From NCBI GenBank assembly GCA_029570205.1, contig JAKQSI010000070.1:57263-121262 (forward strand): a stretch of DNA of 64,000 bases, written 5' to 3'. The position numbers and the translations under genes are program-made. The DNA is from Candidatus Omnitrophota bacterium (GTDB taxonomy: Bacteria > Hinthialibacterota > Hinthialibacteria > Hinthialibacterales > JAKPRU01). Within the stretch, counting starts at the first letter, position 1; the number at the start of each line of letters is the position of its first letter. The notes below the pieces were generated by a model, which searched no databases, was not told the origin of the DNA, and worked only from the letters and a program-made list of their open reading frames with translations. Positions 26,866 to 54,304 of this stretch are shown in pieces.

Positions 26866-29463
26866 ATGACCGGACAAGACTTCACTCAACCTCGTATTCT
26901 GGTGACGGGCGATACGCCATCGGCGTGGGATACCTACCGGTCTGCCCTGAATCCGGGCACAAATGTGCCGGAGGGTCCGCCGTTCGTTTTTAACCTCGCT
27001 TTCTGCCATTCACGGGAAGAAACCTGTGACAGGTTGCGTTCGGCCAGGTTGGAGAACCGCCCGTACGCCGTTGTTTTTATTGAAATTATGGATTTGTCTC
27101 AGCCGGACTGGGGCAATTTGGCACGAGGAATCCGCGCCATCGACTCCGATGTCGAGATTGTGCTTGCGACAACACATTCCGATCATCATTTAGACGACAT
27201 AATCCGCGGAGTGCTTCCGTTCGACAAGATTCTGGTTCTTCGTAAACCGTGTCATCCGGTTGAAATCCGCCAGTTGGCCATCTCCCTGTGGGGGAAATGG
27301 CGAGCCGAGAGACAATTGCGTTGGATTGAGCGCGAGACACAGCAGGAGTCTGCCGGCCCATTCGAATCTCCCGGCTCTGATGTCCCGGAACAAGACACAC
27401 AACAAAGGAACCAGCAGGCTGTGGAGGATCACCTTCAGGCCGTACTGGACGCCATTCCGGGATGCGTTTCCTGGATTACATCCGATTTACGATATGTGGG
27501 GATCAATCGATACCTGGCCAGGTTACTGGGAATTCCTGCCGAGCAGGCCATCGGTCAACCCGTGGGATTCAAGCACACCGACTCGGACTTCTGCCGGTTC
27601 GTAGAGCGTTTTTTTGCATCGAATGTTCAGTGGGACAGCACACAGACCAGTGGGACCATGCAAGGCGAACAACACGATTTCTTTGTGGTGGGTCAAAAAT
27701 ACCGGAACAGCAAAGAAGCGGTTTTTGTGGGATTGGACGTAACCGAACAGAAGCGGGCAGAACGGGCGTTGCGCGAAAGTGAAGAGGACTTTCGCCAACT
27801 CGCAGAGAACATCGGCGAAGTATTCTGGCTCGCCGACAAGGAGTTACGAAAGGTTGTTTATGTCAGTCCGGGGTATCAAGAGCTCTGGGGACGCCGTTGT
27901 GAGGATGCGTATCGCGAACCTTCGTCGTGGCTTGAGACCGTCCATCCCGAAGACCGAGAGCGTGTGTTGCAGGCGCTTTCAACAGTTCGGGCGACAGGCG
28001 CGCTCAGCGAAGTATTCCGAATTATCCGTCCGGGTGGCTCGGTCCGGTGGGTTCGAGACCGCGCGTTTCCGATTCGCGACGAGTCCGGCGAGGTTTACCG
28101 TTATGCGGGGATTGTGGAGGACATTACCGATTCCAGGCGGGCGGAAGAGGAACGGGCAATGCTCGAAGAGCATCTGCTCAATACGGTTCTGGATGGGATT
28201 GTAACGGTCAATCGCGAGGGGGTCATTCTGGCGCTGAACAGCACGGCGGCCACATTGCTCAATGTTCCGCCCGGCAAGGCTGTCGGGATGTACCTTTCGA
28301 CGGTGTGCGGCTCGGACCGTGAGGTGATTGCGGACCTGGTCGAAAAGTCCATTGTTGCGGGGAACGTTGTGCGGGAGCTCCCGGTGACCTTTGAGTCGGC
28401 GGGACGGGTGTGGACGTTCACAGTCAGTGTGACGCCGCTGACCAGCGGGCGGGAGGATGGCGCGCTTTTGGTGATCCGCGATGTCAGCCGACTGCGGGAC
28501 CTGGAGCGCGAAATCTCGGATCGATTTTCATTTAAGAACATTGTCGGCAAAAGCCCGCAAATGCGACGTGTTTTTGAGATGATCCGCAACCTGGCCGATA
28601 CCGACATTACGGTATTGATCCGGGGACCGAGCGGGACCGGCAAGGAACTGGTGGCGGAAGCCCTGCATTATCACGGTTCCGGTCGGATGGGACCGCTTGT
28701 GAAAGTGAATTGCTCGGCTTTGCCGGAGACACTTCTGGAGAGTGAACTGTTCGGCCATGTGCGTGGAGCGTTTACCGGCGCGACCCGCGACAAGGTTGGG
28801 CGGTTCGAACAGGCGGATGGCGGGACGATTTTCCTCGACGAAATCGGGGACATGTCTCCGGCCCTGCAACAGCGATTGTTGCGGGTTTTACAGGAGCGTG
28901 AAATCGAACGGGTCGGGTCCACACAGACCATCAAAATCGACATCCGTGTTCTTGCGGCAACCAACCGAGATCTGTACGAGCTGGTTTCTATCGGCAAGTT
29001 CCGGGAGGATCTTTATTATCGGTTGAACGTGGTGACCATTCAGCTGCCTCCGTTGCGGGAGCGACGTGACGATATTCCGCTTCTGATCCAGCATTTTCTG
29101 CGCCGATCTCAAGCGCACTTGGGACGAGTCATCAAGGGGATTGCTCCCGATGCCATGGAAATACTCCTTCATTACGATTGGCCCGGCAATGTGCGCCAGT
29201 TGGAGAATGCCATCGACCATGCCGTGGTGTTGAGCAGCGATGGATTTATCCGCACCGAGTGTCTTCCTCCGGAACTCCTGCGTGCCGTTCGGACTCCCCT
29301 TGAGCCGCGTCCTGTTGTGCAACCCACGATAGACAGGGAAACTCTTCAGGAAACGCTGAACGCGGTTGGCTGGAATCGGATGCGCGCCGCCCGAAGGCTT
29401 GGAATCAGCCGAACAACCCTCTGGAAAAAGATCAAGGAATACGAACTTATTCCGCCCGAATAA
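26866..29463 (+). CDS. sigma-54-dependent activator with pseudo-receiver and three PAS domains
   Basis: 865 residues. Domains: receiver-like fold about 8-130, in which the phospho-accepting Asp is replaced by Glu (E73 in VVFIEIMDL) while Lys127 (LRKP) is kept; three PAS regions about 190-290, 305-425 (with PAC) and 435-540; an AAA+ sigma-54 domain about 550-785 with Walker A GPSGTGKE (~585), GAFTGA (~634) and Walker B TIFLDEIGD (~652); and a C-terminal Fis-type helix-turn-helix (NRMRAARRLGISRTTLWKKI). It should bind upstream enhancers and drive RNA polymerase-sigma-54. The Glu may mimic a permanently phosphorylated state, leaving signal input to the PAS domains. No histidine kinase gene is adjacent. 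Targets are unknown. Confidence 0.92.
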   Translation: MTGQDFTQPRILVTGDTPSAWDTYRSALNPGTNVPEGPPFVFNLAFCHSREETCDRLRSARLENRPYAVVFIEIMDLSQPDWGNLARGIRAIDSDVEIVLATTHSDHHLDDIIRGVLPFDKILVLRKPCHPVEIRQLAISLWGKWRAERQLRWIERETQQESAGPFESPGSDVPEQDTQQRNQQAVEDHLQAVLDAIPGCVSWITSDLRYVGINRYLARLLGIPAEQAIGQPVGFKHTDSDFCRFVERFFASNVQWDSTQTSGTMQGEQHDFFVVGQKYRNSKEAVFVGLDVTEQKRAERALRESEEDFRQLAENIGEVFWLADKELRKVVYVSPGYQELWGRRCEDAYREPSSWLETVHPEDRERVLQALSTVRATGALSEVFRIIRPGGSVRWVRDRAFPIRDESGEVYRYAGIVEDITDSRRAEEERAMLEEHLLNTVLDGIVTVNREGVILALNSTAATLLNVPPGKAVGMYLSTVCGSDREVIADLVEKSIVAGNVVRELPVTFESAGRVWTFTVSVTPLTSGREDGALLVIRDVSRLRDLEREISDRFSFKNIVGKSPQMRRVFEMIRNLADTDITVLIRGPSGTGKELVAEALHYHGSGRMGPLVKVNCSALPETLLESELFGHVRGAFTGATRDKVGRFEQADGGTIFLDEIGDMSPALQQRLLRVLQEREIERVGSTQTIKIDIRVLAATNRDLYELVSIGKFREDLYYRLNVVTIQLPPLRERRDDIPLLIQHFLRRSQAHLGRVIKGIAPDAMEILLHYDWPGNVRQLENAIDHAVVLSSDGFIRTECLPPELLRAVRTPLEPRPVVQPTIDRETLQETLNAVGWNRMRAARRLGISRTTLWKKIKEYELIPPE

Positions 29464-47852: not shown

Positions 47853-47936
47853 CGATTGTGGATTGCGGATTGCGGATTGCGGATTGCAGGATAACAGGGA
47901 GGGGCGCAACCGTCATTCCGGCGAAAGCCGGAATCC
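47853..47936. repeat. GGATTGC tandem heptamer plus GTCATTCCGGCG repeat
   Basis: GGATTGC appears four times in a row from about 47862, preceded by GATTGT. A GTCATTCCGGCGAAAGCCGG copy follows at 47912-47936. They mark the start of a 1.36-kb gene-free block. Confidence 0.75.
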
Positions 47937-48062
47937 AGCGTCCACACGCATAACGCTCGTGATAGCCTTTCTACTTCGAATAGCAGGACGGTTCCATTCC
48001 GTCCGCTATGTCCACTCTCCGACTCCTCCAAAAAATAAAAATCAAAAATTTCGAAAAAAAGC

Positions 48063-48090
48063 TAAAGGTTTTGCTAAGGTTTGCCGATAA
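48063..48090 (+). promoter_or_regulatory. sigma-28 (FliA)-type promoter, plus strand
   Basis: TAAAGGTT at 48063-48070 and GCCGATAA at 48083-48090, with a 12-nt spacer, against consensus TAAAGTTT-N11-GCCGATAA. The -10 is perfect. It lies about 1.1 kb before the first flagellin gene and reads toward it; the downstream RNA would contain stems at 48120-48142, 48162-48202 and 48297-48335. Confidence 0.75.
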
Positions 48091-48119
48091 AGGAACCGAC
48101 AAGGCAGTAAACCCTTTAT

Positions 48120-48335
48120 GAGGTGTCTGTCGAGGACATCTCCGGGGTTGGCGTTTTCCGTCTGTGGGCATACGGCGAGGCGATACGTCAATCGGCCCAC
48201 AGGGAGCTCTCGGCCCTCTGCGATGGATATCGCGGAGAGGATTCAGAGGAGGATAGTAGCAAGGCCTGGGTGACGCTCATCGGGGCGTTCCTCCGGCAGG
48301 TAAGAATGCGGGTGCCTCGGAAGTATTCTTACCTG
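48120..48335 (+). ncRNA. predicted structured transcript downstream of the sigma-28 promoter
   Basis: Three strong stems: GAGGTGTC/GACATCTC (48120-48127 with 48135-48142, one GU pair), CTGTGGGC/GCCCACAG (48162-48169 with 48195-48202) and CAGGTAAGAAT/ATTCTTACCTG (48297-48307 with 48325-48335, 11 bp perfect). A 92-codon frame (GTG 48123 to 48401) crosses the stems without a ribosome site and resembles no known protein, so RNA is preferred. No T-tract terminator follows the last stem. Confidence 0.45.
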
Positions 48336-48371
48336 TCTGACAAAAGGCGAAAATACATCGAGTCATTGCTG

Positions 48372-48496
48372 GCATCCCGGCCAAGAGCATGGGTCCGGTG
48401 AACGTGACCACCCTCCCGCGCTCTCATGTGAGTAATGGCTTGATCGACCGCCGCAGCCACTGTAGCCGGATTTCGATCCTGCAGGCGGCTACGCCT
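48372..48496. repeat. structured element, copy A
   Basis: Contains GCATCCCGGCCAAGAG (48372-48387) and GGCTTGATCGACCGCCGCAG (48437-48456), then CTGCAGGCGGCTACGCC (48479-48495). CCGCCGCAG (48448-48456) pairs with CTGCAGGCGG (48479-48488). Copy B is at about 48956-49038. The inner part differs in a way that keeps pairing. Confidence 0.65.
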
Positions 48497-48499
48497 TTT

Positions 48500-48930
48500 C
48501 AGTCTCAACGGACCCACCCCTTCGCAGGCTGACGGATTCAACCTGTACTCGCTCAAGGCCAACCGATTGATTCACAACAGAAGGAACCGAGCCGGGGGCC
48601 GGTGTAATCCGGCCTTCCCGGAAGGCATCAACAGATCGGCCCGCCGGTATTCTCAACACGTATCCCGATCGTCCCGGCGCCCGAACGGTTGATCCGCCTT
48701 CCGCCGGGTACCGGCTGACAACCGGCCTCCACCTCGGTTACAGAAACAGTGGAAGGGCGAGGTCCCAAAGCTGTCTCAGAACGTGATCACTGACCTGGAG
48801 CCCTCTCCCCCAAAGATTGGGGGAGACACAGAGGGGGTTGAGTCAGTCGGACATTAAGGAGCAACATAGACGCGAAAACAGGAGGAATTGCGCGGACAGA
48901 GGAGAACAGGACCGATGATCGCGTGGCCCG
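48500..48930. other. remainder of gene-free block
   Basis: Contains a GGGGGCCGG-TGTAAT-CCGGCC hairpin near 48590, GCGGCC-rich palindromic segments and a CCCTCTCCCCCAAAGATTGG repeat at 48800-48843 of the dispersed family. I saw no coding sequence with a ribosome site. Confidence 0.5.
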
Positions 48931-48941
48931 GTTAAAATAAT

Positions 48942-48985
48942 TAAGCCATAACCAGCATCCCGGCCAAGAGAGTGGGTTATGGCTT
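48942..48985 (-). terminator. intrinsic terminator of the candidate small RNA
   Basis: Perfect 11-bp stem (AAGCCATAACC with GGTTATGGCTT) and 22-nt loop. Reading the minus strand, AATTATTTTAACC follows. On the plus strand no T-run follows, so it works leftward. Confidence 0.7.
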
Positions 48986-49038
48986 AATCGACCGCCGCAG
49001 CACACCGCAGCCCTATTTGGGTCTGCAGGCGGCTACGC
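48956..49038. repeat. structured element, copy B
   Basis: GCATCCCGGCCAAGAGAGTGG, then TTAATCGACCGCCGCAG (48984-49000) and CTGCAGGCGGCTACG (49023-49037). Same outline as copy A. An inner stem base pair is G/C in one copy and C/G in the other, a compensatory change. Confidence 0.65.
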
Positions 49039-49106
49039 TTTATCGTCTTGCCAGGAAAGGTCGTATTCGGTTGTCTCTCCGAAGTTCCGATCTTTCGTAT
49101 CATCTG

Positions 49107-49132
49107 TTATCGGCAGTTCCTCCCAAACATTA
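49107..49132 (-). promoter_or_regulatory. sigma-28 (FliA)-type promoter, minus strand
   Basis: Read on the minus strand: TAATGTTT (49132-49125), 10-nt spacer, GCCGATAA (49114-49107). Seven of eight and eight of eight consensus positions. It points away from the flagellin gene, into the gene-free block, and faces the other sigma-28 promoter. Confidence 0.7.
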
Positions 49133-49209
49133 AGCGATTCTACACATTTTTTTCAATTTTTTGCGGGCACGGATGATTTTCCCGCAGGAGATTCACGGAG
49201 GAAACTGTC

Positions 49210-51615
49210 ATGGTCATCTCCAGCCTGACCCGAAATATCCCTGCTTTGGATGTTATTCTGCGGATGCACCGCACGGAAAGCAACCTCAGCGCCAACATCA
49301 CCCGTCTGTCTTCCGGCCTTCGAATCAATACTCCCGCCGATAGTCCGGGCGACTTTGTCACCCTGAGTCGCCTGGGCAGTCGTATTCGGGGGATCGACCA
49401 GGCAAGCCTTAATTCCCAAACTGCGTCCAACATGGCGGCCACCGCGTCAAACGGGATCAGCGAAATGATCTCTCGCCTCCAGTCGATCCGGACGAAAGCG
49501 GTCGCTGCAGCATCCACCGGAACCTCCGATCGTATTACGCGAGCCGGATACCAGGCCGAGATCAACCAGCTGATCGACGACATGGACCGCATCGCCTCCG
49601 GGACCTCGTTTAACGGAAAGAATCTGCTTGACGGAAGCTATGCCAGTAGCACCGAGTTCGTCGAACCGAACCGGTTCAACGGGTCTATTTCCTTTGGGGC
49701 AACTTCCTCTACCCTTCGGTCCGGAACCAGCATCCTCAACATCGTGCAATTGGATCCCGGATCCGAACGATTTGTGATCGGCGACACTGGCGGGATCAGT
49801 CTGGGAATTCAAAACCGAACCGACATCGCCGTCTCCATCGGCCAACTCATCGACATGGGAACGGGGCTGACCGCCAATGTGACGGACGACTTGGACACGC
49901 TCAATTTCGGAAAAGTCTCCCTCATCAACAATGGGACGATTCAATTCACCGGTAACCTTGCGGATGGGGTGACTGCATTTGCAGGCCAGGTTTCTATCGG
50001 CGGCGGCCAGGATATCAATGACCTGGTTACGGCCATCCAGGCCGCGATTGACGCAGCGGAAACCGGTATCGGCGTCAACGGTGCGGGCACGGGACCTTAC
50101 GAAACCGTGGTCTCCTACGACAACACCACCGGACGGCTGGAGTTCACCAACGGGCAGGGAAATACCATTTCCCAGTTCTCAATCGCATTTACGGTCAAGG
50201 ACAACACCGGAACCACGCAGACCACCACGGGAAGCACACGCACCGCCAATATCTACAACCCGCAAGGGGGAATCGGAACGGTCTCCGGCGCTCAAATCGG
50301 GAACTCTCTGTCTTCCATCACCGGCTCCACCTTCGACCCCGGCACATTTGAAATCACGGTCAGCGACCGGATTGCCGCGCAACAGCGCACCATTTCGACG
50401 ACTTATGCCTTTACGGATTTTGGGGGCGCTCCCGTCGGTGCAGGTACGAACATTAACAATACCGCGTTGTTCAACGGTTCGATCACGCTCTCTCTCAACA
50501 ACGGCGACACGATTGACTTTACCGGAACCAATCCCGATGGAACGACGTTCACGGGTACGATCACCATCGCGGCAGGGGACCCGGCTGTCGGAAACGGCAT
50601 TGCACGGAGATACAGCGACCTGATCGCCGAGTTGAACTACCGCGATCAGCGCGGAACATTCTACGGGTGGAACCAGGCCACCGCGACGCTTTCCGCCGGG
50701 AAAATCCAACTGATCGATGATGTTGCCGCCACCTCCAGCACAGCCATGCAGATGGTGGTTAATACGGCGGGCGGGGATGCAGTGGATGACGGTGTTGTAG
50801 TGTATTCCGGCAACGCGGAACGGGCGACGATTTCCATTGCAGGCGGCGCAAGTCAGACGGTGGAAAGCGGGCAGGTGGTAACCCTGGAAGGCGCGGACTT
50901 GAATGCCTCCGGACAGGATTCCCAAGTTACGTTTCGTGTCGGACGGAATCTCTTCGATGGCAGCGATGACCTGGAGATTACCGCCCAGGAATACATTGCC
51001 AGGTTAAACAATGGACCGGCGGTCACATTCCGCAACGGCGACCAGGGGGTATTCATTTCCGATGGGAACAATCCCACCGGCGATATCGCCGGAGCACAAC
51101 AGGTCCAACTTAACTTCGACACGGTTTTGGGGATTACTTCCAATGCCTCTTCCGGTGGCGAGAACTTCGTCCTTACAACCGTAGCCGACCGGCTGAATTA
51201 CCATATCGGCCCCGATGCCTGGGAGGACCGCATGTTCTCCTATTTCAATGTGCAGTCCTCCAACCTGGGGATCTCCGAAACCCGAAATCTCGGCAATATC
51301 AGTGTGACGACTCTCACGGGCGCAAATGATGCCATCGAGGTCATAGACGCTGCGCTGGACCAGCTGAACGTTGTTGCGGGTGTTGTCGGCAGCCTGGAAA
51401 CCCGTATGCAGGACACCTCCAGTCAACTCGATCTCTACTCTCTCAATCTGGACACCGCCTTTTCGACAATCGCCGATGCGGACATGGCGAAAGAGACAAC
51501 CAAACTTGCAATGAACTCACTCCTGATGACTTCGCAGACGGCGGCGTTGCTCCAATCGACAATGTTGCCGACCGAAATTATCCCGCTTCTGCTTGGAATC
51601 GACTTGAAGTCATAA
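49210..51615 (+). CDS. flagellin-family protein, 801 residues
   Basis: The start ATG follows GGAGGAAACTGTC. The N-terminal D0/D1 region is flagellin-like (ISSLTRNIPALDVILRMHR, NLSANITRLSSGLRINTPAD), and the C-terminal D1/D0 helices (TLTGANDAIEVIDAALDQL, DTAFSTIADADMAKETTKLA) close it. Between them are about 550 residues of Gly/Thr/Asn-rich beta repeats, such as NNGTIQFTGNLADG and NNGDTIDFTGTNPDGTTFTG, giving a filament subunit about twice the usual size. It extends slightly past the usual end (PTEIIPLLLGIDLKS), which departs from normal flagellin. It is a paralogue of the next gene; the N-terminal SPGDFVTLSRL replaces the canonical AAGLSIA segment, so it may be a minor flagellin or hook-associated-like protein. 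Confidence 0.88.
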   Translation: MVISSLTRNIPALDVILRMHRTESNLSANITRLSSGLRINTPADSPGDFVTLSRLGSRIRGIDQASLNSQTASNMAATASNGISEMISRLQSIRTKAVAAASTGTSDRITRAGYQAEINQLIDDMDRIASGTSFNGKNLLDGSYASSTEFVEPNRFNGSISFGATSSTLRSGTSILNIVQLDPGSERFVIGDTGGISLGIQNRTDIAVSIGQLIDMGTGLTANVTDDLDTLNFGKVSLINNGTIQFTGNLADGVTAFAGQVSIGGGQDINDLVTAIQAAIDAAETGIGVNGAGTGPYETVVSYDNTTGRLEFTNGQGNTISQFSIAFTVKDNTGTTQTTTGSTRTANIYNPQGGIGTVSGAQIGNSLSSITGSTFDPGTFEITVSDRIAAQQRTISTTYAFTDFGGAPVGAGTNINNTALFNGSITLSLNNGDTIDFTGTNPDGTTFTGTITIAAGDPAVGNGIARRYSDLIAELNYRDQRGTFYGWNQATATLSAGKIQLIDDVAATSSTAMQMVVNTAGGDAVDDGVVVYSGNAERATISIAGGASQTVESGQVVTLEGADLNASGQDSQVTFRVGRNLFDGSDDLEITAQEYIARLNNGPAVTFRNGDQGVFISDGNNPTGDIAGAQQVQLNFDTVLGITSNASSGGENFVLTTVADRLNYHIGPDAWEDRMFSYFNVQSSNLGISETRNLGNISVTTLTGANDAIEVIDAALDQLNVVAGVVGSLETRMQDTSSQLDLYSLNLDTAFSTIADADMAKETTKLAMNSLLMTSQTAALLQSTMLPTEIIPLLLGIDLKS

Positions 51616-51898
51616 AAACCAACCGATCGCAGGATCGGAAAAGGAGGTTGAAAATTCGCGAAATGACGTAGTTGTAAGTCCTGGAAATTCCGAGTACAAT
51701 AGCCGTCGGGGTCGGAGGAAAGGACTCCTTCGGCTGGGGTCGAGGGTGTTACCCGTGCTATCCGATAAAGGTGTCATTCGGCAAGGGCGACGCGTGCGTC
51801 GCCCCTACCGGACGATACCAGGCATCGCTCCCGGAACAGGGGGCATGGTCGGAAGTGGAATAATCAACACAAACACAGCATCACGGAGGAAGATGGTC
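51616..51898. other. inter-flagellin region
   Basis: 283 bp with a possible sigma-70 promoter (51672-51700), a GGGCGACGC-GT-GCGTCGCCC palindrome (51785-51804) and a CCGATC/GATCGG hairpin just after the first flagellin stop. TCCGATAAAGG at 51761 resembles a sigma-28 -10 but has no -35. Confidence 0.5.
51672..51700 (+). promoter_or_regulatory. sigma-70-like promoter before the second flagellin
   Basis: TTGTAA at 51672-51677, 17-nt spacer, TACAAT at 51695-51700. Spacing is ideal; the -35 matches 4 of 6 and the -10 5 of 6. It is about 200 bp before the ATG. Confidence 0.45.
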
Positions 51899-54304
51899 AT
51901 GGATTCCCAACGGATTGGCAGACAATTATTCAATTATTCTCAATACCAGGCGCTTTACTCGAACAAATTACAGAAGGTTCTCGAATCGCTCTCGTCGGGG
52001 TTGCGGATCAACCGGGCGGGGGATGATGCGGCGGGGCTGTCCATCGCCAAGCGGCTTCAGGCACAGTTCAGTTCCCTCAATCAGGCCATGTCGGATGCCC
52101 AGTCCAGTCTGAATGTCGCGGCTGTCGCGGACCAGGCGTTGGGCGAGACCTCGGATCGCTTGGGGCAAATGCGTGAACTTGCGATCCAGGCGGCAAACAC
52201 CGGCGTATATGACAAGCAATCTCGGCAGGCGCTCCAGGCAGAACTCAGCCAGTATGTGGATGAAATCAACCGCATCGCCGGTGCAACGCAGTTCGGAACC
52301 AACAGGCTTCTGAACGGTGATCTTTCGGCACAGGCCGGTCTCCGTGCGGGTCAACCGAACATCGGAGCAACGGTGGATACCGGGCCGTTTGCATCCACGC
52401 TGTCCACGGAAACGAATTACCTCACGATCACCCAGACCCGTCAGGGATCGGCCCAGATCCGCGCGGGAGAAGCCTACGGCCGCACACAAACAATCAACCT
52501 GGGGGTGCAGAATGCGACGGATATCGCGGTCACCACGGGGACCATGTTCAATTCCGCCGCTGCTGCTCCCTCAGCGGCGGGCGACAATCTGACCGATACC
52601 ACGTTCAATTCGGTCACCCTGCAGGCAGGTGGCACAATCACATTCCAGGGCCAATTGGCCGACGGAACCACGGGCTTCTCCGGAACGCTCAGCATCGGGG
52701 CCGGAACGACGATCCATGATCTGGTCAACACGGTCCAGGCTGCCATCGACCAGGCCGAAACCGGGCAGGGAATCAATACCGCAAGCGGAACGGGCGCTCG
52801 CGAAACCAATGTCCGATTCAATGCCACGACAGGCCGGATAGAATTTGTCAACAGCGCCGGGAATGCAGTCTCGGAGTTTGATATCAACTTCACGGTCGAA
52901 AATGCCGCCGGAGTTCAGCAGACCCGGGTTGGTGTGACCCGGCAGGCCCAGATGAACGGTGTCGCGACCGGCGCGCAAGTCGGCAATAATGTGACCGCCA
53001 TTACCGGCAACACATTCGACACCGGCCGGCTGAATATCACCGTGACCGATGTCCAGGCTGCGACCAACCGGCGAGTGGAAAGCAATATCGCGTTTCGCGA
53101 CCAGGGTGGCGCGGCGCTTGCCGCCGGGGGACAACTGGTGGGAGCAGTCTATAACGGTGTTACCCTCGCGGCGGGAGACACTATTCAACTCCAGGGAACC
53201 AATTCTGACGGCACGACGTTTACCAACACGATCACAATTACCGCCGCCGGAGTGGATACCGGGGCAGGGAACGGGACAGCCTCGACATTCCAGGACCTGG
53301 TTGACGAAATGAATGTCCGCGACAATGCCATGGCAGCGGGCGGAGCGGGCAACCAAAGCGGATTCACCTCCGCGCGGGCGACACTCACCGGCAACGGGAC
53401 CATCCAGGTCGTGGACGATCTCGCCGGGACTTCTCAAACCAACTTCACGCTCACCGTCAACGACCGTACCCCCGTCGGTGGTCAGACAGCCGGAACGATG
53501 GTGGATCGCGCGCGCGTTGTTGCCGCCGGAAACGCCGAGTCGGCCACGGTGCGCATAAACGGCGGACCGGCGCAGCGAGTCGAGGCCGGGCAGATGGCAA
53601 CGCTCTATGGACAGAGAGACGCGACTGGAAATAGATCGCAGCTCACCATGCGGATCGGAACCGGCCTTACCGCCGGAACGGATGTGATGGATGTCCGCGC
53701 CGATGAATATGTGGGCCGGCTGAACAACGGCACGGCGGTCACATTCCAGGCCGGCGACCAGAATGTCACGTTCACCAGCGGCGCGGCCACAGGTGTCGCC
53801 GAGACGCTCACCATGGATTTCGGGGCTGTTCTGGATATCCCCGGTGTCGGAGCGGCGAACGCCCAGACTGTGATTATTTCCGCCACGAATCGAAATGCCA
53901 ATTTTCAGGTTGGAGCGTATGCGGACCGGAACATGCCGCTCTTTTTGGGCGATGTTCGGGCGAACCGGTTGGGCCTCGGTGCAGGACAGACCCTTGAGGA
54001 TATCGATATTACCACCCTCTCCGGCGCGGAGCAGGCCATCGGGATCATTGATGCCGCGCTGGAGGATGTCAATACCAGTCGAAGCCGGATCGGGGCGTTT
54101 TCGAACCGAATGGAGAGTTCGACGCGGGATATGGGGGTCGCAATCGAGAACCTCACAGCGGCCTATTCCCGCATGGCCGATACGGATATGGCCCGCAGTT
54201 CAACCCGTCTCGCGACAGAGAATCTCCTGATGCGGTACAACCTCGCTGTGCTGACACAGACCAATCAGTTGCAAAACCAGATGTTCACCGGGCTGTTGCC
54301 GTAG
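51899..54304 (+). CDS. fliC: flagellin, 801 residues
   Basis: ATG 51899 is preceded by GGAGGAAGATGGTC, nearly the same leader as the first flagellin. The canonical N-terminus has YSNKLQKVLESLSSGLRINR and AGDDAAGLSIAKRLQAQ, and the C-terminal D1/D0 has DIDITTLSGAEQAIGIIDAA and AYSRMADTDMARSSTRLATE. The central region is a Gly/Thr/Asn-rich surface domain of about 550 residues whose modules match those of the first flagellin (NVRFNATTGRIEFVNSAGNA beside VVSYDNTTGRLEFTNGQGNT). It is the best candidate for the main filament subunit; its size implies a thick or decorated filament. Confidence 0.93.
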   Translation: MDSQRIGRQLFNYSQYQALYSNKLQKVLESLSSGLRINRAGDDAAGLSIAKRLQAQFSSLNQAMSDAQSSLNVAAVADQALGETSDRLGQMRELAIQAANTGVYDKQSRQALQAELSQYVDEINRIAGATQFGTNRLLNGDLSAQAGLRAGQPNIGATVDTGPFASTLSTETNYLTITQTRQGSAQIRAGEAYGRTQTINLGVQNATDIAVTTGTMFNSAAAAPSAAGDNLTDTTFNSVTLQAGGTITFQGQLADGTTGFSGTLSIGAGTTIHDLVNTVQAAIDQAETGQGINTASGTGARETNVRFNATTGRIEFVNSAGNAVSEFDINFTVENAAGVQQTRVGVTRQAQMNGVATGAQVGNNVTAITGNTFDTGRLNITVTDVQAATNRRVESNIAFRDQGGAALAAGGQLVGAVYNGVTLAAGDTIQLQGTNSDGTTFTNTITITAAGVDTGAGNGTASTFQDLVDEMNVRDNAMAAGGAGNQSGFTSARATLTGNGTIQVVDDLAGTSQTNFTLTVNDRTPVGGQTAGTMVDRARVVAAGNAESATVRINGGPAQRVEAGQMATLYGQRDATGNRSQLTMRIGTGLTAGTDVMDVRADEYVGRLNNGTAVTFQAGDQNVTFTSGAATGVAETLTMDFGAVLDIPGVGAANAQTVIISATNRNANFQVGAYADRNMPLFLGDVRANRLGLGAGQTLEDIDITTLSGAEQAIGIIDAALEDVNTSRSRIGAFSNRMESSTRDMGVAIENLTAAYSRMADTDMARSSTRLATENLLMRYNLAVLTQTNQLQNQMFTGLLP

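Follow-up and report, generated by a model that had tools for sequence, protein, structure and literature searches.

Convergent sigma-28-type promoters enclose a duplicated RNA element upstream of two giant flagellin genes: a putative antisense module of flagellin expression

What would two promoters of the flagellar sigma factor, sigma-28, do when they face each other in front of a pair of giant flagellin genes? The question is raised by a stretch of 64,000 nucleotides (the window; contig JAKQSI010000070.1 of a Candidatus Omnitrophota bacterium), in which a first-pass annotation had placed a plus-strand promoter (P1) and a minus-strand promoter (P2), both with perfect -10 boxes, on either side of a 1-kb block without a protein gene, and had suggested that flagellar-stage noncoding RNAs arise there, or opposing RNAs that might regulate one another or the flagellin mRNA. 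Both promoters were found exactly at the positions proposed (48063-48090 and 49132-49107), each with the -10 box GCCGATAA. The block between them carries two direct copies of an RNA element of about 110 nucleotides (nt), and we regard it as reasonably probable that it constitutes a regulatory RNA module of the flagellin operon F1-F2, in which a leader transcribed from P1 and an antisense RNA from P2 would together modulate flagellin output.

Convergent promoters in the window and in related genomes

P1 (TAAA-N16-GCCGATAA; 48063..48090, plus strand; TAAAGGTTTTGCTAAGGTTTGCCGATAA) has an A-rich tract in front of it, at about 48030-48060, and is oriented toward the flagellins, 1.1 kb upstream of them. 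P2 (TAATGTTT-N10-GCCGATAA; 49107..49132, minus strand; TAATGTTTGGGAGGAACTGCCGATAA) points away from flagellin F1, 77-80 bp before its ATG. A search of the window for TAAA-N12..18-GCCGATAW rendered P1 only, with 0.05 matches expected from shuffled sequences; in P2 the -10 box is perfect and the -35 box is degenerate (TAAT, at 14 bp, a spacing one short). Since GCCGATAA by itself is not rare in the window (6 observed versus 2.5 expected) and the exact sigma-28 pattern is not enriched genome-wide (6 versus 13 for the reversed control), the sequence of P2 is by itself insufficient to prove a promoter, and outside evidence is needed. The genome contains fliA (TIGR02479, 242.6 bits, above the cut-off), whose absence had been named beforehand as a ground for giving up the proposal, and a FlgM-like gene is located downstream of a sigma-28 site (TAAAGTTC-N11-GCCGATAT). 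The attributes of a sigma-28 promoter, namely a -35 TAAA, a -10 GCCGATAA at about 15 bp, and a fliA gene with its regulon, are thus found here.

A DNA search with the block rendered a full homologue in a genome of the same genus (G001, 88% identity), as well as, in four genomes of another family (G003, G004, G005 and G008), short patches of high conservation, each directly upstream of a giant flagellin pair homologous to the two of the window; the identity of F1 between the window and the other family is 41-44%. The convergent arrangement recurs in all six loci, that is, the window and these five relatives: the best plus-strand site is P1, located 692-1147 bp upstream of the flagellin ATG and preceded by an A-rich tract, and the best minus-strand site is P2, located 59-80 bp before the ATG. 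When both strands of the six loci (about 160 kb) were scored at all positions with one generic sigma-28 matrix, every site scoring at least 11 was P1 or P2, bar one stray at position 29015 of the window. The case for a genuine convergent arrangement under selection rests mainly on this near-exclusive occurrence. In the other family, the -35 box of P2 is intact (GCTAAAGTTTTT, identical to that of P1) and is followed by a short variable stretch and then by TTTGCCTATAA, the -10 box being GCCTATAA, one base off consensus. In three relatives (L053, L055 and L056), P2 is located within an imperfect palindrome before the flagellin ATG (e.g. AAAATCCG-CTAAAGTTTTTA-CGGATTTT), which may be an operator or else form an RNA hairpin ahead of the ribosome site.

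Six genomes carry the cassette, out of 14 in phylum OLB16/SURF_12, which presumably corresponds to Candidatus Hinthialibacterota. This lineage was formerly filed as 'Omnitrophica', a filing that has been called a misclassification (PMC10066038). A search for the core pattern across 84,980 genomes rendered three members of the lineage, together with Agromyces and Micavibrio; the latter two were rejected as matches that look like chance and in which the fold of the element is missing. The viral contigs searched for the core pattern rendered no match.

A noncoding block with copies of a structured RNA element

Between the window and G001, differences amount to 0/30 in P1, 1/151 in element A, 0/109 in B and 1/26 in P2, while the spacers are 23-31% different and the synonymous sites of F1 45% different. 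The longest plus-strand open reading frame of the block (48123-48401, 92 amino acids) shows a proportion of nonsynonymous differences (pN) of 0.095 and of synonymous differences (pS) of 0.078 (pN/pS about 1.2), compared to 0.068 and 0.451 (pN/pS 0.15) for F1. Its protein changes as fast as its silent sites, and a conserved protein gene in the block was therefore rejected. The block is thus free of protein genes as had been claimed, and conservation of a protein across it, which had been named as a counter-indication, is not seen in the substitution pattern.

Element A (48349..48500, plus strand) consists of a stem-loop with loop GGCATCCCGGCCAAGAG, a linker CGACCGCCGCAGC and a 3' hairpin ending in GGCTACGCC, followed by TTTT; it is defined by direct repeats D1-D3 and matches the R1 model with 66.6 bits. 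The last copy, read on the plus strand as B' (48932..49040; R1 match of 105.9 bits; inverted repeat I2), has its stem arms at 48940-48953 and 48975-48988, the loop at 48954-48974, the linker at 48989-49001 and the hairpin at 48996-49037. Two to three copies are found between P1 and P2 across the loci, with a common core made up of a stem-loop whose loop (GCATCCCGGCCAAGAG) is almost invariant, an invariant linker CGACC, and then CGCAGC..GCTACG. In helix 1, both sides have changed in 8 of the 14 pairs, which none of 500 shuffles reached and which is far better than in slid versions of the helix. Across the 14 genomes of the phylum, a covariance model matches the element at this locus alone, and in six of them. 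No Rfam family was found in the window at the gathering threshold, the element being absent from Rfam; relaxed E-values rendered no credible match to a known riboswitch or small RNA in the window or its relatives, and no tRNA or tmRNA was found.

The middle segment (48546..48720, plus strand) is 93% conserved with G001 (7% divergence) and does not clearly match the element; near this position, three or four relatives have middle copies of it, with CATCCCGGCCAA and CTGACCGCCGCAG. The inter-element spacer (48789-48853) carries a dispersed repeat of about 40 bp (CTCTCCCCCAAAGATTGGGGGAGACACAGAGGGGG) with about 40 further copies in the genome, resembling repetitive extragenic palindromic (REP) sequences. 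Behind the upstream oxidoreductase gene, the window contains a short GGATTGC tandem repeat (47854-47881) and a palindromic repeat, CGTCATTCCGGCGAAAGCCGGAATCCAG (47913-47941).

Opposite strands of action and an antisense RNA

A G-U pair on one strand is a C-A mismatch on the opposite strand, and wobble pairs are hence asymmetric. The non-Watson-Crick pairs of the first copies are mostly G-U on the plus strand, and those of the last copies are G-U on the minus strand. The ratio of plus-strand to minus-strand G-U pairs is 9:2 in the first copies versus 0:3 in the last copies for trimmed stems (Fisher p 0.027), and 11:1 versus 0:6 for untrimmed stems (p 0.0004), p-values that are indicative only, since the sequences compared are related. 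A C-A/U-G position in the second hairpin occurs in all copies and does not discriminate between the strands. On the 3' side of the plus strand, T-runs are of 4-8 in the first copies versus 1-4 in the last copies; the latter have A-runs of 4-8 on the 5' side, which are U-runs after the hairpin on the minus strand. By these signs, copy A appears to behave as a plus-strand RNA and the last copy, B, as a minus-strand RNA.

The predicted antisense transcript from P2, B RNA, is of 167 nt (48935..49101, minus strand), is supported by the wobble polarity and the U-run, and would consist of one or more upstream hairpins, a hairpin CGTAGC..GCTGCG, a stem of 14 bp carrying the loop CACTCTCTTGGCCGGGATGC, and a 3' end rich in U. 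The hairpin before the U-run is of 14-15 bp across loci, the distance from P2 to the U-run is 157-169 nt in the six of them, and the 3' end is in every case a terminator-like hairpin plus U-run, not of the compact canonical type. P2 is located on the strand opposite to its putative target, as would correspond to the promoter of a cis-antisense RNA.

A and B form predicted duplexes of about 100 nt with energies of -117 to -163 kcal/mol, and the best partner of each A is the B from the same genome (5/5), an example being G004, where an unusual CGACCAACGCGGC is found in both copies. This within-genome matching points to co-evolution or gene conversion. Lying opposite the last leader copy, B is its exact complement, so that the extended complementarity of cis-encoded antisense RNAs is found. 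Two further candidate targets of B were rejected. At the flagellin ribosome site, the advantage over shuffled sequences was inconsistent (two of the six loci); the hairpin loops CTTCGCACCCG of other flagellin leaders (L070, L090 and L099) resemble the loop of the element, TTCGCATCCCGG, and are rare and inconsistent as targets.

The flagellins and their leaders

Flagellin F1 (49210..51615, plus strand, 801 amino acids) has Flagellin_N and Flagellin_C domains, and F2 (51746..54304, plus strand) is an open reading frame of 852 amino acids whose true start is probably internal, near 51845-51899. In a tree of 33 proteins, F1 and F2 constitute two supported clades (100/100 and 98/99), which are restricted to genomes with the RNA cassette plus G002, in which the contig breaks inside F1. 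Both flagellins are missing from G006 and G007, and the element is confined to loci with the F1-F2 pair. In most genomes of the order, flagellin genes number four to nine, their open frames being of about 800-950 amino acids; csrA is present in 13 of the 14 genomes and hfq in nearly all.

A search for a sigma-54 or sigma-70 promoter between A and the flagellin rendered nothing conserved in the six loci. Other giant flagellins of the phylum have sigma-28-like sites 266-774 bp upstream (TCAAG..GCCGATAA, GACGATAT). Because no conserved plus-strand promoter precedes the ATG and long sigma-28 leaders exist elsewhere, we infer that the flagellin mRNA starts at P1 with an untranslated leader (48096..49209, plus strand). 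P1 most likely drives the flagellins through this leader, and the remark that neither site simply drives a flagellin gene has to be amended as far as P1 is concerned. Given the distant sites of the other giant flagellins, P1 with a long leader is probably the usual flagellin layout in the phylum, and P2 with element B a special addition to it.

In the leaders of several other giant flagellins (L070, L077, L080, L089, L090 and L091), a hairpin GGCAnGGATGCC is found about 38-40 nt before the start, directly before the ribosome site AAGGAGGAA, and looks like a CsrA-binding hairpin. F1 itself (49163-49209) has a GC hairpin (GCGGGCACGGATGATTTTCCCGC) whose loop contains ACGGATG and after which come AGGAG and ACGGAGG; it is CsrA-like and is not seen in all relatives.

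A model and its alternatives

The promoters, the element copies, their conservation, the strand polarity, the complementarity and the lack of a protein gene are features of the DNA itself, and the most economical model of them is that sigma-28 controls an antisense RNA and that this RNA acts on a flagellin leader likewise driven by sigma-28. Active FliA would start, at P1, a long untranslated leader with two or three copies of the element, running into F1. P2, of the same promoter class, would start on the opposite strand the RNA B, of about 160 nt, which would end where the minus strand of the last copy forms a hairpin and U-run. B would then pair with the last copy, perfectly, and with element A, strongly, the pairing beginning most likely at the complementary loops (CAUCCCGGCC / GGCCGGGAUG) and the linker (CGACC.CCGCAGC). 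This pairing, perhaps together with polymerase collision, could lower or delay flagellin mRNA by termination in the leader or by destabilisation, and A with its following T-run could be an attenuator. The arrangement suggests that flagellin production has an RNA brake or timer of its own. That these RNAs are transcribed, where they end, that they pair in the cell and in which direction the effect goes is what we infer; attenuation, destabilisation, delay or, instead, protection of the mRNA would look alike in the sequence. The earlier suggestion of noncoding or opposing RNAs is nonetheless supported by the conserved convergent promoters, a conserved structured element for each strand and strong complementarity between the two, the regulatory role being presumed.

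Several points weigh against this model. The strand polarity is based on few changes, and the covariation within B by itself is not significant, with 13 of the 15 helix pairs invariant. A simple scan of the window, limited to loops of up to 8 and so unable to accept the long loop of B, detected no intrinsic terminator at either A or B, and after A there is no strong canonical terminator on the plus strand. Pairing of B with the F1 ribosome site is clearly above shuffles in just two of the six loci. P2 is imperfect, with TAAT in the genus of the window and GCCTATAA in the other family; it may be weak, or be read in part by another sigma factor. Finally, just six loci were found in the collections searched.

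It could also be the case that the copies are tandem sense-strand elements of the flagellin leader, serving as repeated binding sites or aptamers; a protein or ligand bound there would control termination or translation, and P2 would be incidental or minor. P1 and the copies are located within the leader at all loci, the loop and linker are near invariant, and middle copies exist too, all of which would fit. We consider this explanation unlikely, however, since P2 is kept in all six loci at one place, the last copy has minus-strand wobbles and a minus-strand U-run, A and B match within genomes, and the Rfam search of the window and its relatives found no known riboswitch. Less likely still would be two independent sigma-28 small RNAs, A from P1 with its end at the T-run and B from P2, acting in trans on other mRNAs or titrating each other, with another promoter in use for the flagellins. 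In G008 and G004, the T-run of A is just about 140-150 nt from P1, Hfq is present, and A and B both end in U-runs; on the other hand, no conserved alternative promoter precedes F1, other flagellins likewise lie behind long sigma-28 leaders, and the cassette always accompanies F1-F2.

That B serves as a CsrA decoy is very improbable. Its loop GGGAUG, in a GC-closed hexaloop, resembles the GGCAnGGAUGCC hairpins found directly before the ribosome sites of other giant flagellins, the GGA is in the loop on the minus strand alone, csrA is present, and hairpins of the GGCAnGGATGCC type are found about 38 nt before several flagellin starts. Nevertheless, a decoy would be expected to have more than one such loop per RNA, the usual A is missing from the motif, conservation does not extend to the other GGA sites in B, and complementarity to A already accounts for the sequence. 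Chance promoters combined with bidirectional-terminator repeats of no regulatory role, which could be suggested by GCCGATAA not being rare in the genome, are hardly credible in view of the fixed-place conservation across two families with flagellins about 43% identical and the near absence of comparable sites elsewhere in the loci.

Comparison with known systems

Each ingredient of the proposed antisense module has a precedent (PMC10578931, PMC4626219, PMC8687705, PMC4183435, PMC3134472), while a search of the open-licence literature rendered no system with this combination. In Escherichia coli, small RNAs are also made under FliA, some affecting flagellin levels (PMC10578931), but those derive from untranslated regions and pair with mRNAs encoded elsewhere, whereas B would be antisense to the leader of the flagellin operon, in which its sequence is repeated. 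The Campylobacter paralogs CjNC1 and CjNC4 (PMC4626219) are likewise duplicated, sigma-28-dependent noncoding RNAs linked to flagellar genes; they are, however, of about 44 nt with predicted trans targets, and the copies described here are of about 110 nt, beside flagellins and apparently on opposite strands. CJnc180 and CJnc190, also of Campylobacter, are opposing RNAs that pair, one antagonising the other, with processing by RNase III (PMC8687705), but they result from one piece of DNA transcribed both ways, and the RNAs proposed here would come from two separated direct repeats. The FliA promoter inside hypD of E. coli also gives an antisense RNA (PMC4183435), which is weakly expressed, within an unrelated gene, and for which there is no evidence of regulating the overlapping mRNA, in contrast to a promoter conserved across families next to flagellin. 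In scbA-scbR of Streptomyces, face-to-face promoters give overlapping transcripts able to make a switch (PMC3134472); those promoters serve two protein genes, whereas here no protein gene lies between them and both look sigma-28.

Implications

A more specific version of the model, which we put forward only tentatively, is that of a self-timing switch: an element was duplicated, one copy being used as sense in the leader and the other as antisense by means of a conserved opposing sigma-28 promoter, and co-evolution keeps the two complementary, so that one sigma factor would start both flagellin and its brake. The architecture is well supported, and transcription and effect are presumed. Flagellin is among the costliest proteins of the cell, and these bacteria make giant versions of it (about 800-950 amino acids), several per genome. 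The element adds an RNA family absent from Rfam in a barely studied phylum and offers a clear example of a repeat in which each of the two copies seems to have been put to use on a different strand. If the model is true, the flagellar sigma factor would be in charge of both the flagellin leader and the antisense RNA opposing it, which would be a new layout for flagellin control.
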